Shown here one piece after another: positions 117-15,654 of a stretch of 24,665 nt of DNA (positions within the stretch are counted from its first letter, which is position 1; each line of letters opens with the position of its first letter). Made by a program: the position numbers and the translations under genes. Source of the stretch: a virus; IMG/VR virus record IMGVR_UViG_3300024518_006803, positions 1 to 24,665 of that record. One strand, written 5' to 3'. The notes under the pieces were generated by a model. The model was given only the letters and a program-made list of their open reading frames with translations, was not told the DNA's origin and did not search any database.

Positions 117-3100
117 GTGTTGTTTTTGGCTTGGGCGAATCTCATCATCACCTTGCTCATCACAGCAGCGTCTGTCGCTGCTTCCTACTTTCTAGCCAGA
201 TCTAAAAAAGGGCCCGAGGCGCAGTTCCCGGACGAAAAGCCAACCACAATAAATACTCGAGGGTCGTGGATACCCTATTTCATCGGGACTAGGAAGTTAG
301 CCCCTGTAGTGGGAGCTGCAGGGAAACGAGTCAACTACATCGGCTCTCTGTCCGGAGGGATCGATGTTCCTTTGGCTAAAGAAAATGCCTGGCACATGCT
401 GTGTGTGGGGCCGGCTTTCGCTTTGACAAAAATCTGGAATGACGGGAAAGTGATTTTTGATCAGAGAATCACCAGCACATCCCACCCGTCCGGCACAGAG
501 ATTGACTTGGGGTCGGCCCAGGCTGGAGGAGAAGGCCGTTTTCGCATTTTCTGGGGGGAAGAGAACCAGCCAGTAAACACCGTGCTCGGAGTCAACCTGA
601 TACCCGGGCTCCCCGCAATCAAAGCTTCTCGTTGGCCTTTCCTTTGCTACGTTTTCTGGCTTGGCCATCAGCTGACCGAAGGTTTTGTCTGGCCTTCCAT
701 GGAGTACGAGATTGAAGTCCGACCTCTGAACGATCCTGTTTTATCTGGCTTTCCGGTATGGTTGGACCAAACCACAGCAGGAGGGGCTTCCTTTCCAACG
801 GGAACGGTTCAAGCGGGGAACAACGGCTTCATAACGGTTTCTGGGGATCAGACTTCCATCTTTCAGCCGACGACCCCTTTCATCGTTCGCGACAACCCTA
901 CACTAGGCTTCGACACCCCCCTTACTGTCTACTATTCAACTTTCAACCAATCGTTCTTCGATCCCCAGTTGGTCTCGAAGGACTTGAATAATTGGACGAC
1001 CGTAGGAGGCTCTGTTCAGATTGCTCCGCAGCCTCCACCAGCAGTGGGGACGGCTTATAGGATTGGTTCTATTGGAGCTCCTGTAGCGTTCGAATTCGTG
1101 GCTGGTCTCTATGTAGCTACCGGGCAAGCACAGCGATTCGTGGTTCAGATGAACGCTCTAACTCTAGCCAACCTCTCAGACAATTTCGTTTTGGGATTCA
1201 AAGAGACGGTGGGGGGGCAGCAAAACACCCTTCTGAATTTCACCTTCGTTGCTAACGTGCCCTTCCTAGCAGACACCCCCGGAACGGGAGTCTCTGTCGA
1301 TATCGCTCCCCTTGGAGGCAACTGGCACCAGATTACAATTACGTTCCTGAGCACAGCCGTCGAAGCGGGACAAGCCAGGACTGTGTCAATTGAGACAGCA
1401 GAGACCAACGCTTTTCTGAACGTATTCAATCCGCTCCTTGAGGAAGCAGAAGGCACCACCGTTTTTGCTCAGGAGCCGGTGCCTGTTTTATCTAGCAACA
1501 TAGGCACAATCGAGGTGCAGAATATCGAGTCTTTTGATGGGGCAAATGCAGCATCGATCGTAAACCAAATCTTGTTCCAGGAGTGGCCCTCGGGGATCAA
1601 CTGCGACCAGAGCCTCTTCGACTTGACCTCGTTGGAGACAATTGGAGTAGCCCTAAACTCTGCTGCGGAGCGAATTAATTCTCACCTGCTGCTCGAGAAC
1701 GGGGAAACAGTGGAGGCGGCTCTCGTTCAAATCTTCTCGGACGCCGGCATTCTCTTCATTTGGGACGTGAATGATGGAAAGTACAAATTCCGGCTTTACC
1801 GCGAACCGGGGACTTTTGGTACCGAGGTGTTCACTCTGAGCTCCGATATTGTCATGCACCCGCTGCCCGAGATAGAGACGGTACACGAAGACCAGAAAGC
1901 TTTGTGGAACCGTACCACTTTCACTTTCATAGACAGACAAAGGAACTTCCGAGAGAACACGATCACCGTAGACGACGACGGGAATATGGCTCGTCTTGGT
2001 CACCAGCAGACCAAAAGCACGCACCTGTACGCTACCTTCGACTTTCCGACTGCTGCAAAGATCGCGGAAAGACGCGCGCAGGAAGACTTGGTCTCGCACG
2101 TCCGATTCTCGGTCAAAGTGTCTCGAGCCGCTCGGAAGATTCCTTGCGGCAGCTCCATTCAAATTCCCGACCTTCCTCTGGACTTGTTTCTGAGGGTTGT
2201 CCAGATCGAGATTGATACGGAATCGGAGCAGACGACCCTGCACTGCCTTCTTGACCTCTATGGTGTGGTGGCGTCATCTTTCCAATCTCCCCAAGGGCTT
2301 GGTCTGTTCTCAGGCCAGTCCCAGGTGCAGCCAGATCTGCAGGTAGGGATTCTAGAAGAGCCCAGGTACCTCAGTAACGACTTGATTATGCGTGTAATTG
2401 TGCCCCGCATTCGGTCGTCCGTCTCTATCCAAGGGGCTGGCTTGAACCTGTCGGACGATGGTCTGTTCTTCACGGAAGAGGCCGCAGACTCAGCGATTCA
2501 TGCCGGCGGGATTCTCATAGATGCCATGGAGGCCACTAGAACAGATGGGGCTTTTGGTGACAGCTCCCAAGAGACAGGTCCCACGTTCACCTTCGTTGGC
2601 ATAGACCAGCAAGATATGGAAGACCTTACGACTGTACCTGAATTGTGGAGAAAGGGCCGTCAGTGGGCTCTAATCGGACAGGAAATCTGCTATGTGCGTC
2701 GAATTGAAGCGGTGACGGCTCAGACGTACCGAATGATTGGGTTGCTTCGCGCCCGTCTCGGCACACAGAAAGTCGTCCATGCTCCGGGGGAGGAGGTCTT
2801 CATCTTTCAGAGAGAAGAGCTGCCCCGGGTTTCGAGCAATCTCTTGGCTGCGGGAGCGACCCTGTCAGTCAAGACGTCTCCTTTCGCCGGCAATGTGGTT
2901 GACTTGTCTTTGGTGACAGCAGAAACGCTGGTTCTGACAGGAGAGGCTCTTCGGCCTATGCGTCCAGTGAACCTTCACAGCGCAAGCCAGTCCTATTCCT
3001 GGGTAGACGGAGATGCCTTGGATCTAGTCTGGTCCTATCGGTCTTCTCAGTCGCCTAAAACAGGGGCTGGACTACAAGACGCGGGAGCGGCGACCTCTCC

Positions 3101-3332
3101 CTCAGCGATTCAGGGGACCTTCCGGCTTGACTTTCACAGGGACGCGGGAGGGGGAGCTCCCGGAAGCCTAGGAACGTCCGTCACAGGCTTGGCAGGAACG
3201 TCGTACACTTTCACAGCTGCTGACATATCTACTTTCTTCTTGGGGCTGAATTCGATCGTAGTCGGAATCACCAACGTCGGAGGTGGTCTCTCCTCTGACA
3301 CTTTCTACAAGCAATTCTCGAGGGTCTTCTGA
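117..3332 (+). CDS. phage tail-tip / central fibre protein (tip attachment protein J-like)
   Basis: Large structural protein of 1071 residues, expected at the tip of the tail where it contacts the host surface. It starts at GTG 117, with GGAG about 8 bases upstream (ACGGAGAGC). Residues 1-27 form a hydrophobic segment followed by ARSKKG, as seen in the first residues of many tail-tip proteins of this class. The middle (around residue 504, ETIGVALNSAAERI) has the look of the Phage-tail_3 domain. Around residues 870-885, YRMIGLLRARLGT followed by VVHAPGEEVF matches the recurrent LLRGRRGT...H..GE motif of GTA/siphovirus tail-tip proteins. The C-terminal 100 residues are Gly/Ser-rich and fibronectin-like. 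Its TGA overlaps the ATG of the next gene, so the two are probably co-translated. Family assignment is from motif memory, not a search. Confidence 0.85.
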   Translation: MLFLAWANLIITLLITAASVAASYFLARSKKGPEAQFPDEKPTTINTRGSWIPYFIGTRKLAPVVGAAGKRVNYIGSLSGGIDVPLAKENAWHMLCVGPAFALTKIWNDGKVIFDQRITSTSHPSGTEIDLGSAQAGGEGRFRIFWGEENQPVNTVLGVNLIPGLPAIKASRWPFLCYVFWLGHQLTEGFVWPSMEYEIEVRPLNDPVLSGFPVWLDQTTAGGASFPTGTVQAGNNGFITVSGDQTSIFQPTTPFIVRDNPTLGFDTPLTVYYSTFNQSFFDPQLVSKDLNNWTTVGGSVQIAPQPPPAVGTAYRIGSIGAPVAFEFVAGLYVATGQAQRFVVQMNALTLANLSDNFVLGFKETVGGQQNTLLNFTFVANVPFLADTPGTGVSVDIAPLGGNWHQITITFLSTAVEAGQARTVSIETAETNAFLNVFNPLLEEAEGTTVFAQEPVPVLSSNIGTIEVQNIESFDGANAASIVNQILFQEWPSGINCDQSLFDLTSLETIGVALNSAAERINSHLLLENGETVEAALVQIFSDAGILFIWDVNDGKYKFRLYREPGTFGTEVFTLSSDIVMHPLPEIETVHEDQKALWNRTTFTFIDRQRNFRENTITVDDDGNMARLGHQQTKSTHLYATFDFPTAAKIAERRAQEDLVSHVRFSVKVSRAARKIPCGSSIQIPDLPLDLFLRVVQIEIDTESEQTTLHCLLDLYGVVASSFQSPQGLGLFSGQSQVQPDLQVGILEEPRYLSNDLIMRVIVPRIRSSVSIQGAGLNLSDDGLFFTEEAADSAIHAGGILIDAMEATRTDGAFGDSSQETGPTFTFVGIDQQDMEDLTTVPELWRKGRQWALIGQEICYVRRIEAVTAQTYRMIGLLRARLGTQKVVHAPGEEVFIFQREELPRVSSNLLAAGATLSVKTSPFAGNVVDLSLVTAETLVLTGEALRPMRPVNLHSASQSYSWVDGDALDLVWSYRSSQSPKTGAGLQDAGAATSPSAIQGTFRLDFHRDAGGGAPGSLGTSVTGLAGTSYTFTAADISTFFLGLNSIVVGITNVGGGLSSDTFYKQFSRVF

Positions 3333-5937: not shown

Positions 5938-6399
5938 TCATTGCGATGTCTCCCTCTCACAGTATTCTTTCAGCCTGGCGTGCTGCCACTGCCTTTCGGC
6001 CTCGTAGGCGGCGGCGTCGGCGTCGTAGGCGGCGGCGTCGGCGGAGTAGGCGGCGTCGGCGGCGGCGGCGGCGGAGGAGTAGGTGGCTCTCAATGTCACA
6101 TCGTCGACCAACCCCCTCGCATAGCCTCTTGCGTATTGGACGGCACGTCGGGACCTCTCGTCTACCTTATTTGATCGATCAAGAGCCCGACCCACACAAT
6201 CGCACGTAAAGAGCATGGCCAAGTCTGGCCGCACAACAGCCAGAGCCCAGATCGCATCATTGAGATTCGCGATTTTTGCGATGTAGACCCACGACCCCTT
6301 CCTAGCCTTGCGTCCCAGTTGAGCCTCGATACGATCGATCCCATCAGGGCAAGCTTCAGCTTCGACGGCCCTGCAGTAGCTAATCTTCAATCCTGTCAT
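5938..6399 (-). CDS. Imm5-like (putative immunity protein) alanine-repeat protein
   Basis: 153 residues. The centre (LFTCDCVGRALDRSNKVDERS then RRAVQYARGYARGLV) followed by a long Ala-rich helix matches the pattern of phage and bacterial proteins annotated as putative immunity protein / Imm5-like, in which a W.LA...P.....F..DCA.R.L....D.R...A...AR.YA.G segment precedes (A)n(AAxAA) helices. The role in phages is unknown. The tail, about residues 105-140, is encoded by GCC-rich tandem repeats (Ala, Asp, Tyr and Glu). ATG 6399 is preceded by GGGGAGAATCC. The upstream eight-codon ORF ends 12 bases before it and may feed ribosomes into it. Confidence 0.65.
   Translation of the reverse strand: MTGLKISYCRAVEAEACPDGIDRIEAQLGRKARKGSWVYIAKIANLNDAIWALAVVRPDLAMLFTCDCVGRALDRSNKVDERSRRAVQYARGYARGLVDDVTLRATYSSAAAAADAAYSADAAAYDADAAAYEAERQWQHARLKEYCERETSQ
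6002..6043 (+). repeat. 21-bp perfect tandem duplication in the Ala-rich gene
   Basis: The 21-base unit at 6002-6022 is repeated exactly at 6023-6043, in a wider GCC/GGC-rich stretch to about 6080. On the - strand it codes a seven-residue Ala/Asp/Tyr unit within the Imm5-like protein. A unit length divisible by three means gain or loss of copies keeps the frame. The + strand copy also reads as poly-Arg or poly-Gly in other frames, which I regard as shadows. Confidence 0.85.
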
Positions 6400-10770: not shown

Positions 10771-12891
10771 TTACTCCTTGGGTGCAAACCGTTCTTTGAG
10801 TTCTTTTTCTTCTACTCGACTCACCTTGAGTCCTCGTTCTCGTAGGGCTGAGGGAGGAAATAATTGTGGCATCGGGGACCAATTGCAGTAGATGATCTTC
10901 TGCCGGGACCCCGTGGTTTGTTGTATGTATAGAGAATCAACTATAGACGCTGCCATGTTCATCTCATCTATGGGAGAGACGTCTTTGTGTCGAAACAAAG
11001 GAATCTCTGCGATTACCTCCTCGGCTTTTTGTCCATTTCGATGGAGTCTTCCCAGCACTTGTTCCGCGAGTTTTGCGGATCTAGGCCACTGCATGAAGAA
11101 CATATTAGACCAAGCCTGCAAATTCTTTCCCGTTCCATGTGCTTTCATGGACGCTATGACGAACCGTCCTTGATTCGTTGGATCTATTATTGCTTCGTTG
11201 CTTTCTTTGCCTGCTGGGCACCATAACGCCTGAGGCAGAAGCTCATGGAGCCACCTTCCGATTTCTTGGTTGTGGTACCAGATAATGCCTCCCTTCTTAC
11301 GGAGCATGGAAGACGATACCCAACTGATAGCTGCGTTAACTTTGAAGGAATCTACCCTGACGCCCTCAGGGATTCTCTGAGGCAATTCCGGATGCTCTAG
11401 AGCCTTCATGCTCCCCCAAAGAGAAAAGAGCTCCTTTCCGACGTTCATGGCTCCGTAGAGAGCCATGTTTTTACCTACGGTCAGGGGGGTGTCTAGTCCG
11501 TAAGCGTGCGGATGGTCGTTGAACCATTTTCGGAGGACCTTATGGTATTCCTGCTGAGCTTCGTGGTGCTCTTTCGCCTGCTCCAAGAGGTCTGGTCGAG
11601 AACATTCGTTCTTGTCTGGCCAGCGTAGGAGATTGTAGAAGCCGGCGGATAGCTCATAGAGGTATCTCCATTTGTGCATGGCATGAGAAATCTCGTCTCC
11701 GCTGGGAGATAACCAACGCAACTCTACATCTGTGATTTTCTCTATCAGCTCTTCCCCGGGGCAGCAGGTACCTACGAAAGGCATGAGAACGAGAGAGCTC
11801 CCGATTTCTTCGTCTCCGGTGGCAACGACCCCGGGTGCACTGCGTAGCCTGACTCTGTAGGCAGCTCTGAAAATATCTACTTTTTCGGTCTGTCCCTTCA
11901 TCTGTTCGGACGCTAGCCTCTCAGCCCACAAAACCAGAGGAGCCAAGAACTGTTTGCCATCTTCCCACCAGGAACCATCTGCGTCTACACAGTCAGCCCA
12001 GAGGGAGACTAGTTTCTTCTTGTGTGGTAGAGGAGAGTTGTCTTTCAAGCACCAATCGATCAGGTGATGATAGTCCTTGATAGACTTGCTGGTGATTGTG
12101 CCGCTCAAGGCAGCTCCATAAGGTTTCTTATCCTTGACATAATGAAGTAGGCGCTTGGTACGCGCTGCCTCTCGTCGAGATACTTTGTCACACTCATCTA
12201 GAATGATGAGCTCCGGCTCAATACGTTCTATGAGTTGGTCTTCGTCCCGAGAAAGCATTGAGTAGCTCATCACATAGAGTCCGGGGTTCTTATTTTTTGC
12301 CAGCCTCTTTCTGCGGGAACGAGGAGCCCCGTGAAGAATATGTACTGGATACTGGGCCGTTACATGGCGGCGAGCGAAGGGAAAGTCTCTCCGCAGTAGC
12401 TGACTGATGACTTGCGCTGGAACGATCAACAGAGCTCTGTCAATCCATTCCTCCTGGAATGCGATAAACGGGAGAACCTGCGTGATGATTGTCTTGCCCC
12501 AACCGACCCCAATAGGAGCGAAGAGTCCTCGATGTTGGCGGAACGCAGAAAGAGCGGCTGCTTGAATCGGCCAGAAAGAGAACCCTGAGCCAGCTATGGC
12601 GTACTGGTTTTGGATACAGTTAAGTCTTTCTTCGGTAACTCCATCTTCTAGAGGCATCCGGAGAATCCTATCCAGCGCTTGGATGTGGTCGCTTCCGAGT
12701 CCTTTTGTTGCCGGCCTAAAAAATGACTGGACAGCAATGGTTCTCTCCCTAGGTACCTGTGCTTTAGCCTGTCGGATTAGTTCTTTACGGGCTTTGGAAG
12801 AAACCTTCATCTTGGAGAGAGCATCTCTCTTTCCGAGACTCGCAGAGAGCGCGGCTTTTTTCACTTGCTGAAGCAGCTCGAGCCTAGTCAT
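10771..12891 (-). CDS. SNF2-type superfamily 2 DNA helicase / translocase
   Basis: 706 residues from ATG 12891. Walker A GVGWGKT at 128-134, LLIVPAQV at 154-161, DEAD-box-type DECD at 232-235, SGT at 263-265, motif V region MKAHGTGKNLQAW at 582-594 and motif VI QVLGRLHRNGQ at 611-621. The Q..GR.HR.GQ form of motif VI is typical of SNF2-like phage helicases. It likely remodels or unwinds DNA during replication or recombination. The start overlaps the stop of the last Arg/Ser-repeat gene (ATGA). The frame stays open for another 61 codons upstream, but these read the repeats in a Val/Ser frame, so I exclude them. The conserved AGGGAAGGGGAAGAA block serves as its SD. Confidence 0.93.
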   Translation of the reverse strand: MTRLELLQQVKKAALSASLGKRDALSKMKVSSKARKELIRQAKAQVPRERTIAVQSFFRPATKGLGSDHIQALDRILRMPLEDGVTEERLNCIQNQYAIAGSGFSFWPIQAAALSAFRQHRGLFAPIGVGWGKTIITQVLPFIAFQEEWIDRALLIVPAQVISQLLRRDFPFARRHVTAQYPVHILHGAPRSRRKRLAKNKNPGLYVMSYSMLSRDEDQLIERIEPELIILDECDKVSRREAARTKRLLHYVKDKKPYGAALSGTITSKSIKDYHHLIDWCLKDNSPLPHKKKLVSLWADCVDADGSWWEDGKQFLAPLVLWAERLASEQMKGQTEKVDIFRAAYRVRLRSAPGVVATGDEEIGSSLVLMPFVGTCCPGEELIEKITDVELRWLSPSGDEISHAMHKWRYLYELSAGFYNLLRWPDKNECSRPDLLEQAKEHHEAQQEYHKVLRKWFNDHPHAYGLDTPLTVGKNMALYGAMNVGKELFSLWGSMKALEHPELPQRIPEGVRVDSFKVNAAISWVSSSMLRKKGGIIWYHNQEIGRWLHELLPQALWCPAGKESNEAIIDPTNQGRFVIASMKAHGTGKNLQAWSNMFFMQWPRSAKLAEQVLGRLHRNGQKAEEVIAEIPLFRHKDVSPIDEMNMAASIVDSLYIQQTTGSRQKIIYCNWSPMPQLFPPSALRERGLKVSRVEEKELKERFAPKE

Positions 12892-13184
12892 TTCTTCCCC
12901 TTCCCTGACCGAGTTCCGGATCGAGTCCTCGACTCCGACCGAGACCAAAACCACGACCCCGACCGATATCGAGACCGAGACCAGGATTGAGCCCCAGACC
13001 GAGACCGAGACCCTGGATGAGACCGAGACCAAGCCCAGCCCCCAGATCGGGACCAAGACCAAGATCGGGGCCATAATCCCTTCCGTGACCGCGACCCACC
13101 CCGAAACCGATACAGAGACCGAGATCTAGACCGAGCTCGAGTCCCGGACCGATACTTTCCCACTCTCAGTATCGCAGCGTTCAT
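12888..13184 (-). CDS. Arg/Ser-repeat protein, array member 10
   Basis: 98 residues; the member next to the SNF2 helicase gene, whose ATG lies in its TGA. It begins MNAAILRVGKYRSGTRARSR and, apart from a Gly/Lys-containing stretch near residues 28-36 (FRGGSRSRKG), is Ser-Arg with Trp. Its last 45 residues (from about SHPGSRSRSGAQSW to SGKGKK) are almost identical to those of member 9, while its N-terminus is different, so the two share only the back half. Highly basic. It overlaps member 9 by ATGA. Confidence 0.6.
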   Translation of the reverse strand: MNAAILRVGKYRSGTRARSRSRSLYRFRGGSRSRKGLWPRSWSWSRSGGWAWSRSHPGSRSRSGAQSWSRSRYRSGSWFWSRSESRTRSGTRSGKGKK

Positions 13185-13444
13185 TTCTTCCCCTTCCCTG
13201 ACCGAGTTCCGGATCGAGTCCTCGACCCCGACCGAGACCAAAACCACGACCCCGACCGATATCGAGACCGAGACCAGGATTGAGCCCCAGACCGAGACCA
13301 AGACCCTGGATGAGACCGAGACCAAGAACGAGTCCAAAATTGAGCCCCGGATCGGGTCCGAGACAAAGATCTAGTCCTAGCTCCGGTTCTGGTCCGAGAC
13401 AGGCCCCTCTGCTCCCGTGCCCCTCTCAGTGTCGCGGGTATCAT
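13181..13444 (-). CDS. Arg/Ser-repeat protein, array member 9
   Basis: 87 residues, of which 19 are Arg, 6 Trp and only one is acidic. It begins MIPATLRGAREQRGLSRTRT, an N-terminus shared almost exactly with member 8, and ends with the SGKGKK tail shared with member 10. The SD block AGGGAAGGGGACGAA precedes ATG 13444, which overlaps the stop of member 8. The alternating Ser-Arg/Ser-Trp composition suggests a disordered nucleic-acid-binding or protamine-like peptide. This is inferred from composition only. Confidence 0.6.
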   Translation of the reverse strand: MIPATLRGAREQRGLSRTRTGARTRSLSRTRSGAQFWTRSWSRSHPGSWSRSGAQSWSRSRYRSGSWFWSRSGSRTRSGTRSGKGKK

Positions 13445-13698
13445 TTCGTCCCCTTCCCTGACCGATATACAGACCGATCCCGCGACCGAGTCCGAGACCG
13501 AGACAAAGACAGGGTCCTCGACCAAGTCCGAGCCCTCGACCAAGATCGAGATAAAGACAGGGTCCTCGACCACTTCCTATACCTCGACCAAGATCGAGTC
13601 CCGGATCGGGTCCGAGACAAAGATCTAGTCCTAGCTCCGGTTCTGGTCCGAGACAGGCCCCTCTGCTCCCGTACCACTCTCAGTGTCGCAGCGTTCAT
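13441..13698 (-). CDS. Arg/Ser-repeat protein, array member 8
   Basis: 85 residues beginning MNAATLRVVREQRGLSRTRT; the next 20 residues match member 9. The second half (WSRARTWSRTLSLSRSRTRS) matches member 7 instead. It therefore looks like a hybrid of its two neighbours. It ends SGKGTK, coded by the SD of the next gene, and both its start and stop are ATGA overlaps. SD AGGGAAGGGGGCGAA. Confidence 0.6.
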   Translation of the reverse strand: MNAATLRVVREQRGLSRTRTGARTRSLSRTRSGTRSWSRYRKWSRTLSLSRSWSRARTWSRTLSLSRSRTRSRDRSVYRSGKGTK

Positions 13699-13913
13699 TT
13701 CGCCCCCTTCCCTGACCAACACCGAGACCGATCCCGCGACCGAGTCCGAGACCGAGACAAAGACAGGGTCCGAGACCAAGTCCGAGCCCTCGACCAAGTC
13801 CGAGATAAAGACAAAGACCAAGTCCTCGACCACTTCCTATACCTCGACCAAGATCGAGTCCGAGTCCGAGATCCAGGTCGAGATAGCCCACCTATCATCG
13901 TCGCAGCTACCAT
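13695..13913 (-). CDS. Arg/Ser-repeat protein, array member 7
   Basis: 72 residues starting MVAATMIGGLSRPGSR, the same 16 residues (apart from position 16 onward) as member 5. The SD is GGGGAGGGGGGTGAG, unlike the GGGAAGGGG type of most members. It overlaps member 6 by 7 bases rather than by ATGA. The repeat part carries Trp and Leu (TWSLSLSRTWSRARTW), and the C-terminus SGKGAK is shared in form with members 2, 3 and 8. Confidence 0.6.
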   Translation of the reverse strand: MVAATMIGGLSRPGSRTRTRSWSRYRKWSRTWSLSLSRTWSRARTWSRTLSLSRSRTRSRDRSRCWSGKGAK

Positions 13914-14230
13914 CTCACCCCCCTCCCCGGCCGAGTTCCGGACCGAGTCTGGTACTGAGACCGAGACTTACAACGAGAACTAGATCTGCACCGAATCACA
14001 ACTTTCGACCAACACCAAGACCGATATCGAGACCAAGATTGAGCCCCTGACCGAGACCACGACTTCGACCGATATCGAGACCAAGAGTGAGCCCCTGACC
14101 GAGACCAAGATTGAGAGCTGAATCGCGGCCAAGGCTCAATCATAGATCTCGACCGCGACCGAGACCATGCTCCGGTCCTGGTCCGCGACAGGCCACTGCC
14201 TCTCCCTGCCCCCATCGTCGTAGCGTTCAT
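13907..14230 (-). CDS. Arg/Ser-repeat protein, array member 6
   Basis: The longest member, 107 residues. It begins MNATTMGAGRGSGLSRTRTG and contains MIEPWPRFSS, then SWSRSGAHSWSRYRSK and a related repeat SWSRSGAQSWSRYRSW, then WCWSKVVIR. The front and the WCWSKVVIR...SQYQTR back are shared with member 4; the middle has an extra duplicated block absent there. It ends RGVRW rather than SGKGxK because its end overlaps a different type of SD. Preceded by the AGGGAAGGGGAAGAA block. Confidence 0.6.
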   Translation of the reverse strand: MNATTMGAGRGSGLSRTRTGAWSRSRSRSMIEPWPRFSSQSWSRSGAHSWSRYRSKSWSRSGAQSWSRYRSWCWSKVVIRCRSSSRCKSRSQYQTRSGTRPGRGVRW

Positions 14231-14406
14231 TTCTTCCCCTTCCCTGACCAAGTCCTATACCGATCCCCTGACACAGATCTGGACCAAGACCCACCCCTAG
14301 ACCGAGACAAGGTCCAAGTCCAAGCCCAAGATCTAGTCCGGGCCCAAGATCTAGTCGGCCGAGATCCAGGTCGAGATAGCCCACCTATCATCGTCGCAGC
14401 TACCAT
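14227..14406 (-). CDS. Arg/Ser-repeat protein, array member 5
   Basis: 59 residues starting at ATG 14406, one base after the stop of member 4 and directly after AGGAGGGGGTGAG, the strongest SD in the array. It begins MVAATMIGGLSRPGSR like member 7 and continues with Trp-rich repeats (WARTRSWAWTWTLSR). It ends SGKGKK with its TGA overlapping the ATG of member 6. Members 4-5 and 6-7 form two copies of the same two-gene unit. Confidence 0.6.
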   Translation of the reverse strand: MVAATMIGGLSRPGSRPTRSWARTRSWAWTWTLSRSRGGSWSRSVSGDRYRTWSGKGKK

Positions 14407-14407
14407 C

Positions 14408-14668
14408 TCACCCCCTCCTGGATCGGGTCCGAGTCTGGTACTGAGACCGAGACTTACAACGAGTCCCAGATCGAGACCGAATCACAACTTTCGACCAACA
14501 CCAAGACCGACACCAAGACCGACACCGAGGCCCGAGCCTAATCCAAGACCGAGAGCTGAATCGCGGCCAGGGCTCAAGCATAGATCTCGACCGCGACCGA
14601 GACCATGCTCCGGTCCTGGTCCGCGACAGGCCACTGCCTCTCCCTGCCCCCATCGTCGCGGGTATCAT
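14408..14668 (-). CDS. Arg/Ser-repeat protein, array member 4
   Basis: 86 residues beginning MIPATMGAGRGSGLSRTRTG, then WSRSRSRSMLEPWPRFSSRS; a close relative of member 6 but without its duplicated central block. It contains three Trp-Cys or Arg-Cys pairs (RCRSWCRSWCWS) and ends TRTRSRRG. The start overlaps the stop of member 3 (ATGA), with SD AGGGAAGGGGACGAA. Confidence 0.6.
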   Translation of the reverse strand: MIPATMGAGRGSGLSRTRTGAWSRSRSRSMLEPWPRFSSRSWIRLGPRCRSWCRSWCWSKVVIRSRSGTRCKSRSQYQTRTRSRRG

Positions 14669-14907
14669 TTCGTCCCCTTCCCTGACCGATCCCGCGACCG
14701 AGTCCTCGACCAAGTCCGAGACTCAGACCTAGACCAAGTCCTAGAACAAGCCCCAGACCGAGACCGAGACCAAGACTTATTCCAAGTCCCAAACCTAGTC
14801 CGAGACAAAGACCGAGACGAAGTACAAGTCCAGGCCCAATATCTAGTCATCGAATGAGATCCAGCCTCAGGCCAGTACTGTCTTGACCCCAGTGTCGCAG
14901 CTATCAT
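14665..14907 (-). CDS. Arg/Ser-repeat protein, array member 3
   Basis: 80 residues with the most divergent N-terminus, MIAATLGSRQYWPEAGSHSM, followed by TRYWAWTCTSS before the repeats become regular. It ends RDRSGKGTK and overlaps members 2 and 4 by ATGA. SD GGAAGGGGGCAAA. The unique first 35 residues may mark an older or differently constrained copy. Confidence 0.55.
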   Translation of the reverse strand: MIAATLGSRQYWPEAGSHSMTRYWAWTCTSSRSLSRTRFGTWNKSWSRSRSGACSRTWSRSESRTWSRTRSRDRSGKGTK

Positions 14908-15062
14908 TTTGCCCCCTTCCGAGATCGAGTCCGAGACATTGCCCTAGACCTCGACCGAGACCAAAACCACGACCCCGACCACCGATATCGAGACCGAGTC
15001 CCAGATCGAGACCGAGACCAAGCTTGGGCCCCAGACCGATACCTTTCCGCTCCGGCTATCAT
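14904..15062 (-). CDS. Arg/Ser-repeat protein, array member 2
   Basis: The shortest member, 52 residues: MIAGAERYRSGAQAWSRSRS, then TRSRYRWSGSWFWSRSRS and a final RKGAK. The RYRSG stretch after the start recalls member 10, and SGSWFWSRS recurs in members 9 and 10. SD GGGAAGGGCAGAA; ATGA overlaps at both ends. The frame stays open upstream but reads Val/Ser repeats without an SD, so the ATG at 15062 is chosen. Confidence 0.55.
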   Translation of the reverse strand: MIAGAERYRSGAQAWSRSRSGTRSRYRWSGSWFWSRSRSRAMSRTRSRKGAK

Positions 15063-15310
15063 TTCTGCCCTTCCCGAGACCGAGCCCTCGACCACGTCCG
15101 AGACTTCGACCACGTCCGAGACTTCGACCGAGACCGAGCCAAAAAATTCGACCGAGCCCAACACCGAGAACGAGACCGAGACCGAGACCGAGCAAAAAAA
15201 TTCGACCTCGACCGAGACCATCCCCCATATAGGGACCAACGCCTAGCTCTGGTCCTGGTCCGCGACAGGCCACTCTGCTCCCGTTCCACTCTCATTGTGG
15301 TAGCTATCAT
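15059..15310 (-). CDS. Arg/Ser-repeat protein, array member 1 (first)
   Basis: 83 residues; the first member in transcription order. ATG 15310 overlaps the stop of the DUF6948-like gene (ATGA) and lacks a strong SD, so it probably depends on translation of that gene. It begins MIATTMRVEREQSGLSRTRT, similar to members 8 and 9, then contains an internal repeat with RSNFFARSRS and RSNFLARSRS. It ends REGQK. Confidence 0.6.
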   Translation of the reverse strand: MIATTMRVEREQSGLSRTRTRARRWSLYGGWSRSRSNFFARSRSRSRSRCWARSNFLARSRSKSRTWSKSRTWSRARSREGQK

Positions 15311-15654
15311 TTCGGCTCTGTAGGGAGCTCAGATAGCCATTCTATCGCATCGACGATAGCCCCTCTCCCGATAACGACATTGCGCTTGACCGGCTCGATC
15401 TCCGAGTCGGAGTCGTTCATCATATCGGTCTGGCAACTCGTGAATCTCCCCGTATCCGCGACCCAGGCCGCAGTTTCTATCGATATCTCTTTGTCCCCAA
15501 CCCAGATGATTCGCCCCGTCCAGGCGTGCGTAACTAGCCTGAATAGGTATGACTTGCCCACCTGCCAAGGAGCAGTTGCTGCGTCGTACTCAGGAGCCTT
15601 TACGGGCTCCTCAATCTTTGACGCCAGTTCAATCAATTCTTCTTTGATTCCCAT
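15307..15654 (-). CDS. DUF6948-like phage protein
   Basis: 115 residues. GKSYLFRLVTHAWTGRIIWV at about 33-52, then TAAWVADTGRF near 62-72, a short acidic linker, and VVIGRGAIVDAIEWLSELP near the end match a phage protein family I know as DUF6948 (the recurrent AAWVADTGRF, then GRGA.IDA.EW). Its function is unknown; the fold is probably a small beta-rich domain. ATG 15654 is preceded by AAAGGGGATAAGTAAG. It is the first gene of the coupled chain that runs through the Arg/Ser-repeat array to the helicase. Confidence 0.75.
   Translation of the reverse strand: MGIKEELIELASKIEEPVKAPEYDAATAPWQVGKSYLFRLVTHAWTGRIIWVGDKEISIETAAWVADTGRFTSCQTDMMNDSDSEIEPVKRNVVIGRGAIVDAIEWLSELPTEPK

Follow-up and report, generated by a model that had tools for sequence, protein, structure and literature searches.

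An undescribed gene pair in uncultivated bacterial viruses: a predicted Sm-like protein and its Ser-X repeat microproteins

Does a run of ten repeat-built open reading frames (ORFs) in a viral genome represent genes or merely the by-product of repeated DNA, and, if genes, with what do their products work? The question is raised by the IMG/VR virus record IMGVR_UViG_3300024518_006803, of which a stretch of 24,665 bases (the window) was analysed, the array region being read on the minus strand. A first-pass annotation had noted there ten consecutive ATG-started ORFs of 52-107 residues at 12888-15310, and the ORF coordinates bear this out. Their products, here called Ser-X proteins, begin with a conserved head, some 10 residues long, and continue as (Ser-X)n, where X is Gly, Arg or Trp about equally often. 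Comparison across phages indicated that the Ser-X ORFs are almost certainly genuine genes and that an Sm-fold protein is their regular companion. The array in the window is an amplified case of a usually single-copy module, and what the first-pass annotation had missed is that this widespread module comprises two genes, of which the gene upstream of the array is the constant member.

The orderly starts and stops of the array had been taken as a sign of coding, a point that did not survive closer analysis. The array DNA is a tandem repeat with a 254-bp period and 90% match (Tandem Repeats Finder), its plus strand is also open (ORFs of 248 and 256 residues), and the GL and VS frames of the repeat are open likewise. 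Since several repeat frames are open on both strands, open frames and neat junctions alone are no proof of coding, and the regular stop-start overlaps arise because one unit was duplicated in tandem. The differences among the window's own copies at codon positions 1-3 (0.30, 0.15 and 0.21) and the multiple-of-three indels were also set aside, because hexamer slippage yields the same.

Evidence for coding came instead from other phages. A phase-blind pattern scan, requiring a Shine-Dalgarno (SD) sequence and ATG followed within 12-42 nt by (TCTNGG)3, was run on IMG/VR viral stretches and on bacterial genomes. It detected 60 viral stretches, in which 81 of 83 starts lay in the Ser-X frame and one in each of the other frames, whereas the bacterial genomes gave 23:28:30, i.e. 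23/81 in the Ser-X frame. Clear long Ser-X tracts in the bacterial scan were confined to two copies on one Halanaerobiales metagenome-assembled genome (MAG) contig, L153, with the partner gene upstream. A scan for the AGC-type pattern gave a weaker phase excess (31:10:3 for tracts of at least 6), because Glu/Gln-rich tracts of other proteins match this pattern too; the partner was present at 17 of 23 real Ser-X loci as against 2 of the 57 other matches.

The same (S-[G/R/W])n protein is spelled with different serine codons in different phages (TCT 1471, TCG 1133, AGC 471, TCA 284, TCC 38, AGT 21), while inside one phage the serine codon is nearly fixed and X varies freely at its first base. 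The frame in which this base is the wobble position would, judging from the codons, give GL, GR, GA or GV depending on the phage, and so is not a conserved frame. This variety of serine codons, together with the frame ratio, upheld the earlier claim of protein-coding genes as opposed to structural DNA. Across phages the X residues comprised 1061 Gly, 1030 Arg and 913 Trp. The synonymous choice between AGG and CGG for Arg tracks the guanine-plus-cytosine (GC) content of the phage (rho -0.39; AGG share 0.72 in the low-GC third and 0.33 in the high-GC third), whereas the Gly and Arg shares at X do not track GC and the Trp share goes up with it, opposite to mutation pressure. The order of X is near random and the spread of Trp share is no larger than sampling error. 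Selection thus acts on the composition of the Ser-X tract.

Clustering of the genes around Ser-X loci yielded one dominant family, present at 36 loci in one copy each, with further ones found by hidden Markov model. In the window its member is the minus-strand gene at 15307-15654, which encodes 115 residues (WVADTGRF, with a Sm2-like GRG at residues 96-98) and belongs to subfamily A of the two partner subfamilies, A (WIADTGRF, about 110 residues) and B (VYETG, about 86 residues). These are homologous (hhalign 97%, E 5e-11; profile search agrees), and the partner family, 85-115 residues long, is well conserved. Relatives of the partner numbered 164 and 361 in all, and 159 loci were fetched by partner bait alone. 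A Ser-X ORF lay inside the locus at 134 of these 159, in every case on the partner's strand, against a background of 0 in 215 3-kb tiles; many of the other 25 loci end at a contig edge or hold a short Ser-X ORF just under threshold. In 105 loci the Ser-X start fell between -10 and +30 nt from the partner stop, as ATGA in 44 and at -1 in 27. A single Ser-X gene was found at 107 of the 134 loci, arrays of up to about ten copies being the exception.

The partner is mostly a phage gene. Among 50,697 GenBank phage records it occurred only in MW202825 and MW202573, both Manatee Spring metagenomes and both with Ser-X ORFs immediately behind it. In bacterial genomes it was found in 1 of 369 of one class (L485, a phage-like contig with a terminase adjacent) and in 2 of 299 of one phylum, namely the Halanaerobiales contig and one weak match. 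On L485, at 1477-1896, the partner, of subfamily B, adjoins the terminase and is followed by a TTG-started ORF in which (RG)5 replaces Ser-X; this may be a variant of the tail or one that has shifted frame. Contig L332 carries tandem partner-A genes, at 3001-3255 and about 370 nt past its stop, with no recognisable Ser-X ORF after the first.

Monomers of the window partner (aligned with 70 relatives) and of a B partner (58 relatives) were modelled with AlphaFold2, giving predicted local distance difference test scores of 84.6 and 93.8. Both models displayed an N-terminal helix and a bent five-strand barrel, as in archaeal SmAP and eukaryotic Sm/Lsm proteins, whose bacterial counterpart is Hfq. 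The matches listed by Foldseek against the PDB (E about 2e-3 for A and 6e-4 for B) and by VIA-align (Z 9.5 and 10.5) were almost all Sm/LSm chains, and on the models both subfamilies have the predicted Sm/LSm fold. In 37 of 53 A rows an [RK]G stands at residues 97-98, between strands 4 and 5, which we take to be the place of the Sm2 signature; B rows are without it. Unlike known Sm/LSm proteins, the partner, whose fold is predicted from monomer models, is only 85-115 residues long, is paired with a repeat microprotein and gave no significant LSM match in Pfam hmmscan (A and B) and none in a PDB profile search. Since no curated LSM sequence model matches, we use the names Sm-fold or Sm-like and do not assign it to a named LSM family.

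The upstream gene had been called DUF6948-like in the first-pass annotation. DUF6948-annotated phage proteins are among its structural neighbours in BFVD, but the A and B members tested had no significant match to Pfam DUF6948. No fitting family for the partner was found in Pfam, PHROGs, NCBIfam or PADLOC, and neither it nor the Ser-X proteins match the PADLOC defence models. When the Ser-X proteins were compared with the libraries, SdrC/ClfA-like and FEA1 models came up, but as serine-rich chance matches far under the cut-offs. As the earlier annotation had surmised, nothing similar was found described in the libraries searched or in the literature on DUF6948, phage SR repeats, phage condensates and Sm-like phage proteins.

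The heads of the Ser-X proteins differ with the partner. Next to subfamily A partners the heads are near-neutral and follow the pattern MNxAILRxG, to which the window heads MNAAILRVG, MNAATLRVV and MIPATLRGA belong; next to B partners they are strongly basic and follow MxTKRxKxRS. This change of head type with partner subfamily suggests, from sequence, that the head contacts the partner.

The loci thus share two conserved coding genes that lie together on one strand in many tailed phages unrelated to each other, the first with an Sm fold in prediction, and a nucleic-acid-binding or condensate role of the Ser-X peptides is compatible with this evidence. We propose, at about even confidence, that the pair acts as a nucleic-acid-binding ribonucleoprotein (RNP), split into an Sm-like core and separately encoded cationic, Trp-containing tails. 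The first gene would make the small Sm/LSm-fold protein and the second, translationally coupled directly downstream, the Ser-X proteins, whose head may dock onto the Sm-like protein in single or ring form. The Ser/Arg/Trp/Gly chain would then form a disordered, cationic and aromatic tail making many weak contacts with nucleic acid, most likely RNA. With such tails supplied in trans, the complex could serve early in infection to hold, shield or gather the transcripts or the replicating DNA of the phage, and Ser-X copy number would set tail dose or valence. Because composition and not order matters, the tract could be renewed by hexamer expansion, and such renewal would be why the serine codon is uniform within a phage yet different between phages.

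Several points weigh against this reading. Subfamily B lacks the Sm2 RG, so that it does not necessarily retain canonical uridine binding. The difference in head net charge over residues 2-9 (0.8 for A, 3.2 for B, p 3e-17) was calculated ignoring shared ancestry, and behind a few partner genes no Ser-X ORF could be recognised although 3 kb of sequence follows them. Binding of nucleic acid, assembly of a ring, contact between head and partner, and condensation are all inferred, and short Arg/Trp-rich peptides fit a membrane-active or toxic role too.

This last point leads to the alternative of a toxin-antidote or effector-chaperone pair, in which the Ser-X proteins would be inhibitory, either membrane-active or translation-blocking, and the Sm-like protein would neutralise, store or deliver them, the head setting specificity. 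The order of the genes, their close coupling and the matching of heads to partners resemble cognate pairs, and Arg/Trp-rich antimicrobial peptides are, like the Ser-X proteins, short, cationic and Trp-rich; such peptides are also reported to act on nucleic-acid phase transitions (PMC10630377). Unlike these peptides, however, Ser-X proteins are phage-encoded, share their operon with an Sm-fold protein, measure 40-110 residues and carry Ser at every second position. Up to ten coupled effector copies would face a single antidote, PADLOC gave no match and lysis cassettes are not the rule among the neighbours; we also know of no Sm fold that serves as an antitoxin. We consider such a pair unlikely.

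Slightly less probable again is a role in host takeover, with multivalent tails acting as a decoy that sequesters a host RNA or DNA factor (RNase E, say, or a nuclease of the host's defences) and the Sm-like protein mimicking Hfq or another LSm ring for specificity. The Sm fold, the composition-only constraint and the early-type neighbours would suit this, and PMC4980113 reports a phage protein that binds the host RNA degradosome and inhibits it. However, no host target was identified, and the partner is well conserved and does not show the surface diversification that an arms race should bring.

That the tract is a repeat which expanded selfishly or neutrally after joining the end of a useful partner gene seems very unlikely: it is homogenised and grows or shrinks within one phage, and arrays arise repeatedly on the partner tree, but Ser-X ORFs are nearly universal behind the partner, their heads are subfamily-specific and X composition is held against GC pressure. 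A DNA-level element, in which the hexamer repeats would work through their structure as DNA or RNA (recombination, origin, G-quadruplex) while the ORFs were by-products, could draw on the short-period repeats with G-runs and on the several frames open on both strands but is scarcely credible, being contradicted by the frame ratio of 81:1:1 and by the codons, as the repeat DNA varies (TCTNGG, TCGNGG, AGCNGG, TCANGG) under a constant protein and the serine codon class switches up to 32 times on a poorly resolved partner tree, a count that is too high should the unresolved forks be mistaken.

Within the window, the Ser-X genes follow the partner on the minus strand in the order 1 (15059-15310, 83 residues), 2 (14904-15062, 52), 3 (14665-14907, 80), 4 (14408-14668, 86), 5 (14227-14406, 59), 6 (13907-14230, 107), 7 (13695-13913, 72), 8 (13441-13698, 85), 9 (13181-13444, 87) and 10 (12888-13184, 98 residues, with the subfamily-A head MNAAILRVG). 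Counting the flanking genes, 9 of 11 junctions are 4-nt ATGA overlaps (partner/1, 1/2, 2/3, 3/4, 5/6, 7/8, 8/9, 9/10 and 10/helicase), the remainder being a 7-nt overlap at 6/7 and a 1-nt gap at 4/5. The chain links partner to helicase through ATGA at both ends, and, as first described, eight of nine internal junctions overlap, seven of them as ATGA. The accompanying statement that nearly every member has its own SD applies to members 2-10, which have a purine-rich SD-like stretch (GGGAAGGGG, GGAGGGGG) 5' of the start, member 1 having none as clear. Pooled over the 809 residues of the ten members, composition was Ser 22.5%, Arg 22.4%, Gly 9.3%, Thr 8.2% and Trp 7.5%; the earlier tally for member 9 (19 Arg, 6 Trp and one acidic residue in 87) was exact.

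The other window genes encode a tail protein, PolA, the DEAD/SNF2 helicase, a PD-(D/E)XK exonuclease and a DUF5906-like protein. The helicase, to which the first description had drawn attention, is incidental, for neighbours differ widely between phages: in a PHROGs search the matches of 140 neighbours were spread over 223 PHROGs, with no PHROG in more than four, and included terminases, SSB, RecT, RecE, exonucleases, methyltransferases and replication proteins. This diversity indicates that the pair moves between tailed phages that are unrelated, and often sits in regions of DNA metabolism. As bait, the helicase found no relatives in viral contigs and one distant match in GenBank phages. The only blastn match of the array among phages was low-complexity, to an unrelated large virion protein of Synechococcus phage S-SCSM1. 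A further minus-strand ORF of the window (5938-6399) contains a tract of Ala/Asp/Tyr repeats (AAAADAAYSADAAAYDADAAAYEAE), which coincides with a tandem repeat of 21/33 bp (5996-6087).

On three other contigs (L003, L086 and L095) the MRYLFEGS Ser-X array adjoins QueE-like genes, accompanied on L003 by QueD- and FolE-like genes (identified by eye), which suggests 7-deazaguanine DNA modification; an extra Ser-X ORF without the usual head follows queE in one or more of these phages. Four large phage contigs (L059, L063, L092 and L106) carry a second conserved serine-rich ORF (MIRSVDFASSGSWSGNWDTSEW...), and L059 and L106 have a Ser-X ORF besides.

Sticker-and-spacer composition of Ser/Arg and Gly/Arg is typical of RS and RG/RGG low-complexity domains, as in SR proteins, Sm-protein tails and FUS-like proteins, and Ser-X proteins share it along with near-random order. 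Unlike these domains, they are separate phage microproteins with about 27% Trp at X, strict Ser alternation, a fixed head and tandem copies, and the likeness would be convergence. It is tempting, at a little under an even chance, to see in the pair a new kind of phage RNP, with an Sm-like core and RS/RG/W low-complexity tails made as separate microproteins of tunable copy number, a composition-selected counterpart of Sm plus SR/RG proteins present in many uncultivated tailed phages and in nearly no GenBank phage record.

The Sm-like and Ser-X genes form an undescribed pair in many uncultivated bacterial viruses, whose products probably bind nucleic acid jointly during infection. As an abundant unannotated phage module, found on hundreds of contigs, the pair regularly joins a structured Sm-fold protein to one of extreme low complexity. 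It also offers a natural experiment on disordered proteins, in which composition is kept while order, and even codon family, drift, so that sticker-and-spacer ideas become testable by comparative genomics. Short repeat ORFs, which tend to be discarded by gene callers and low-complexity filters, can thus be conserved phage genes.

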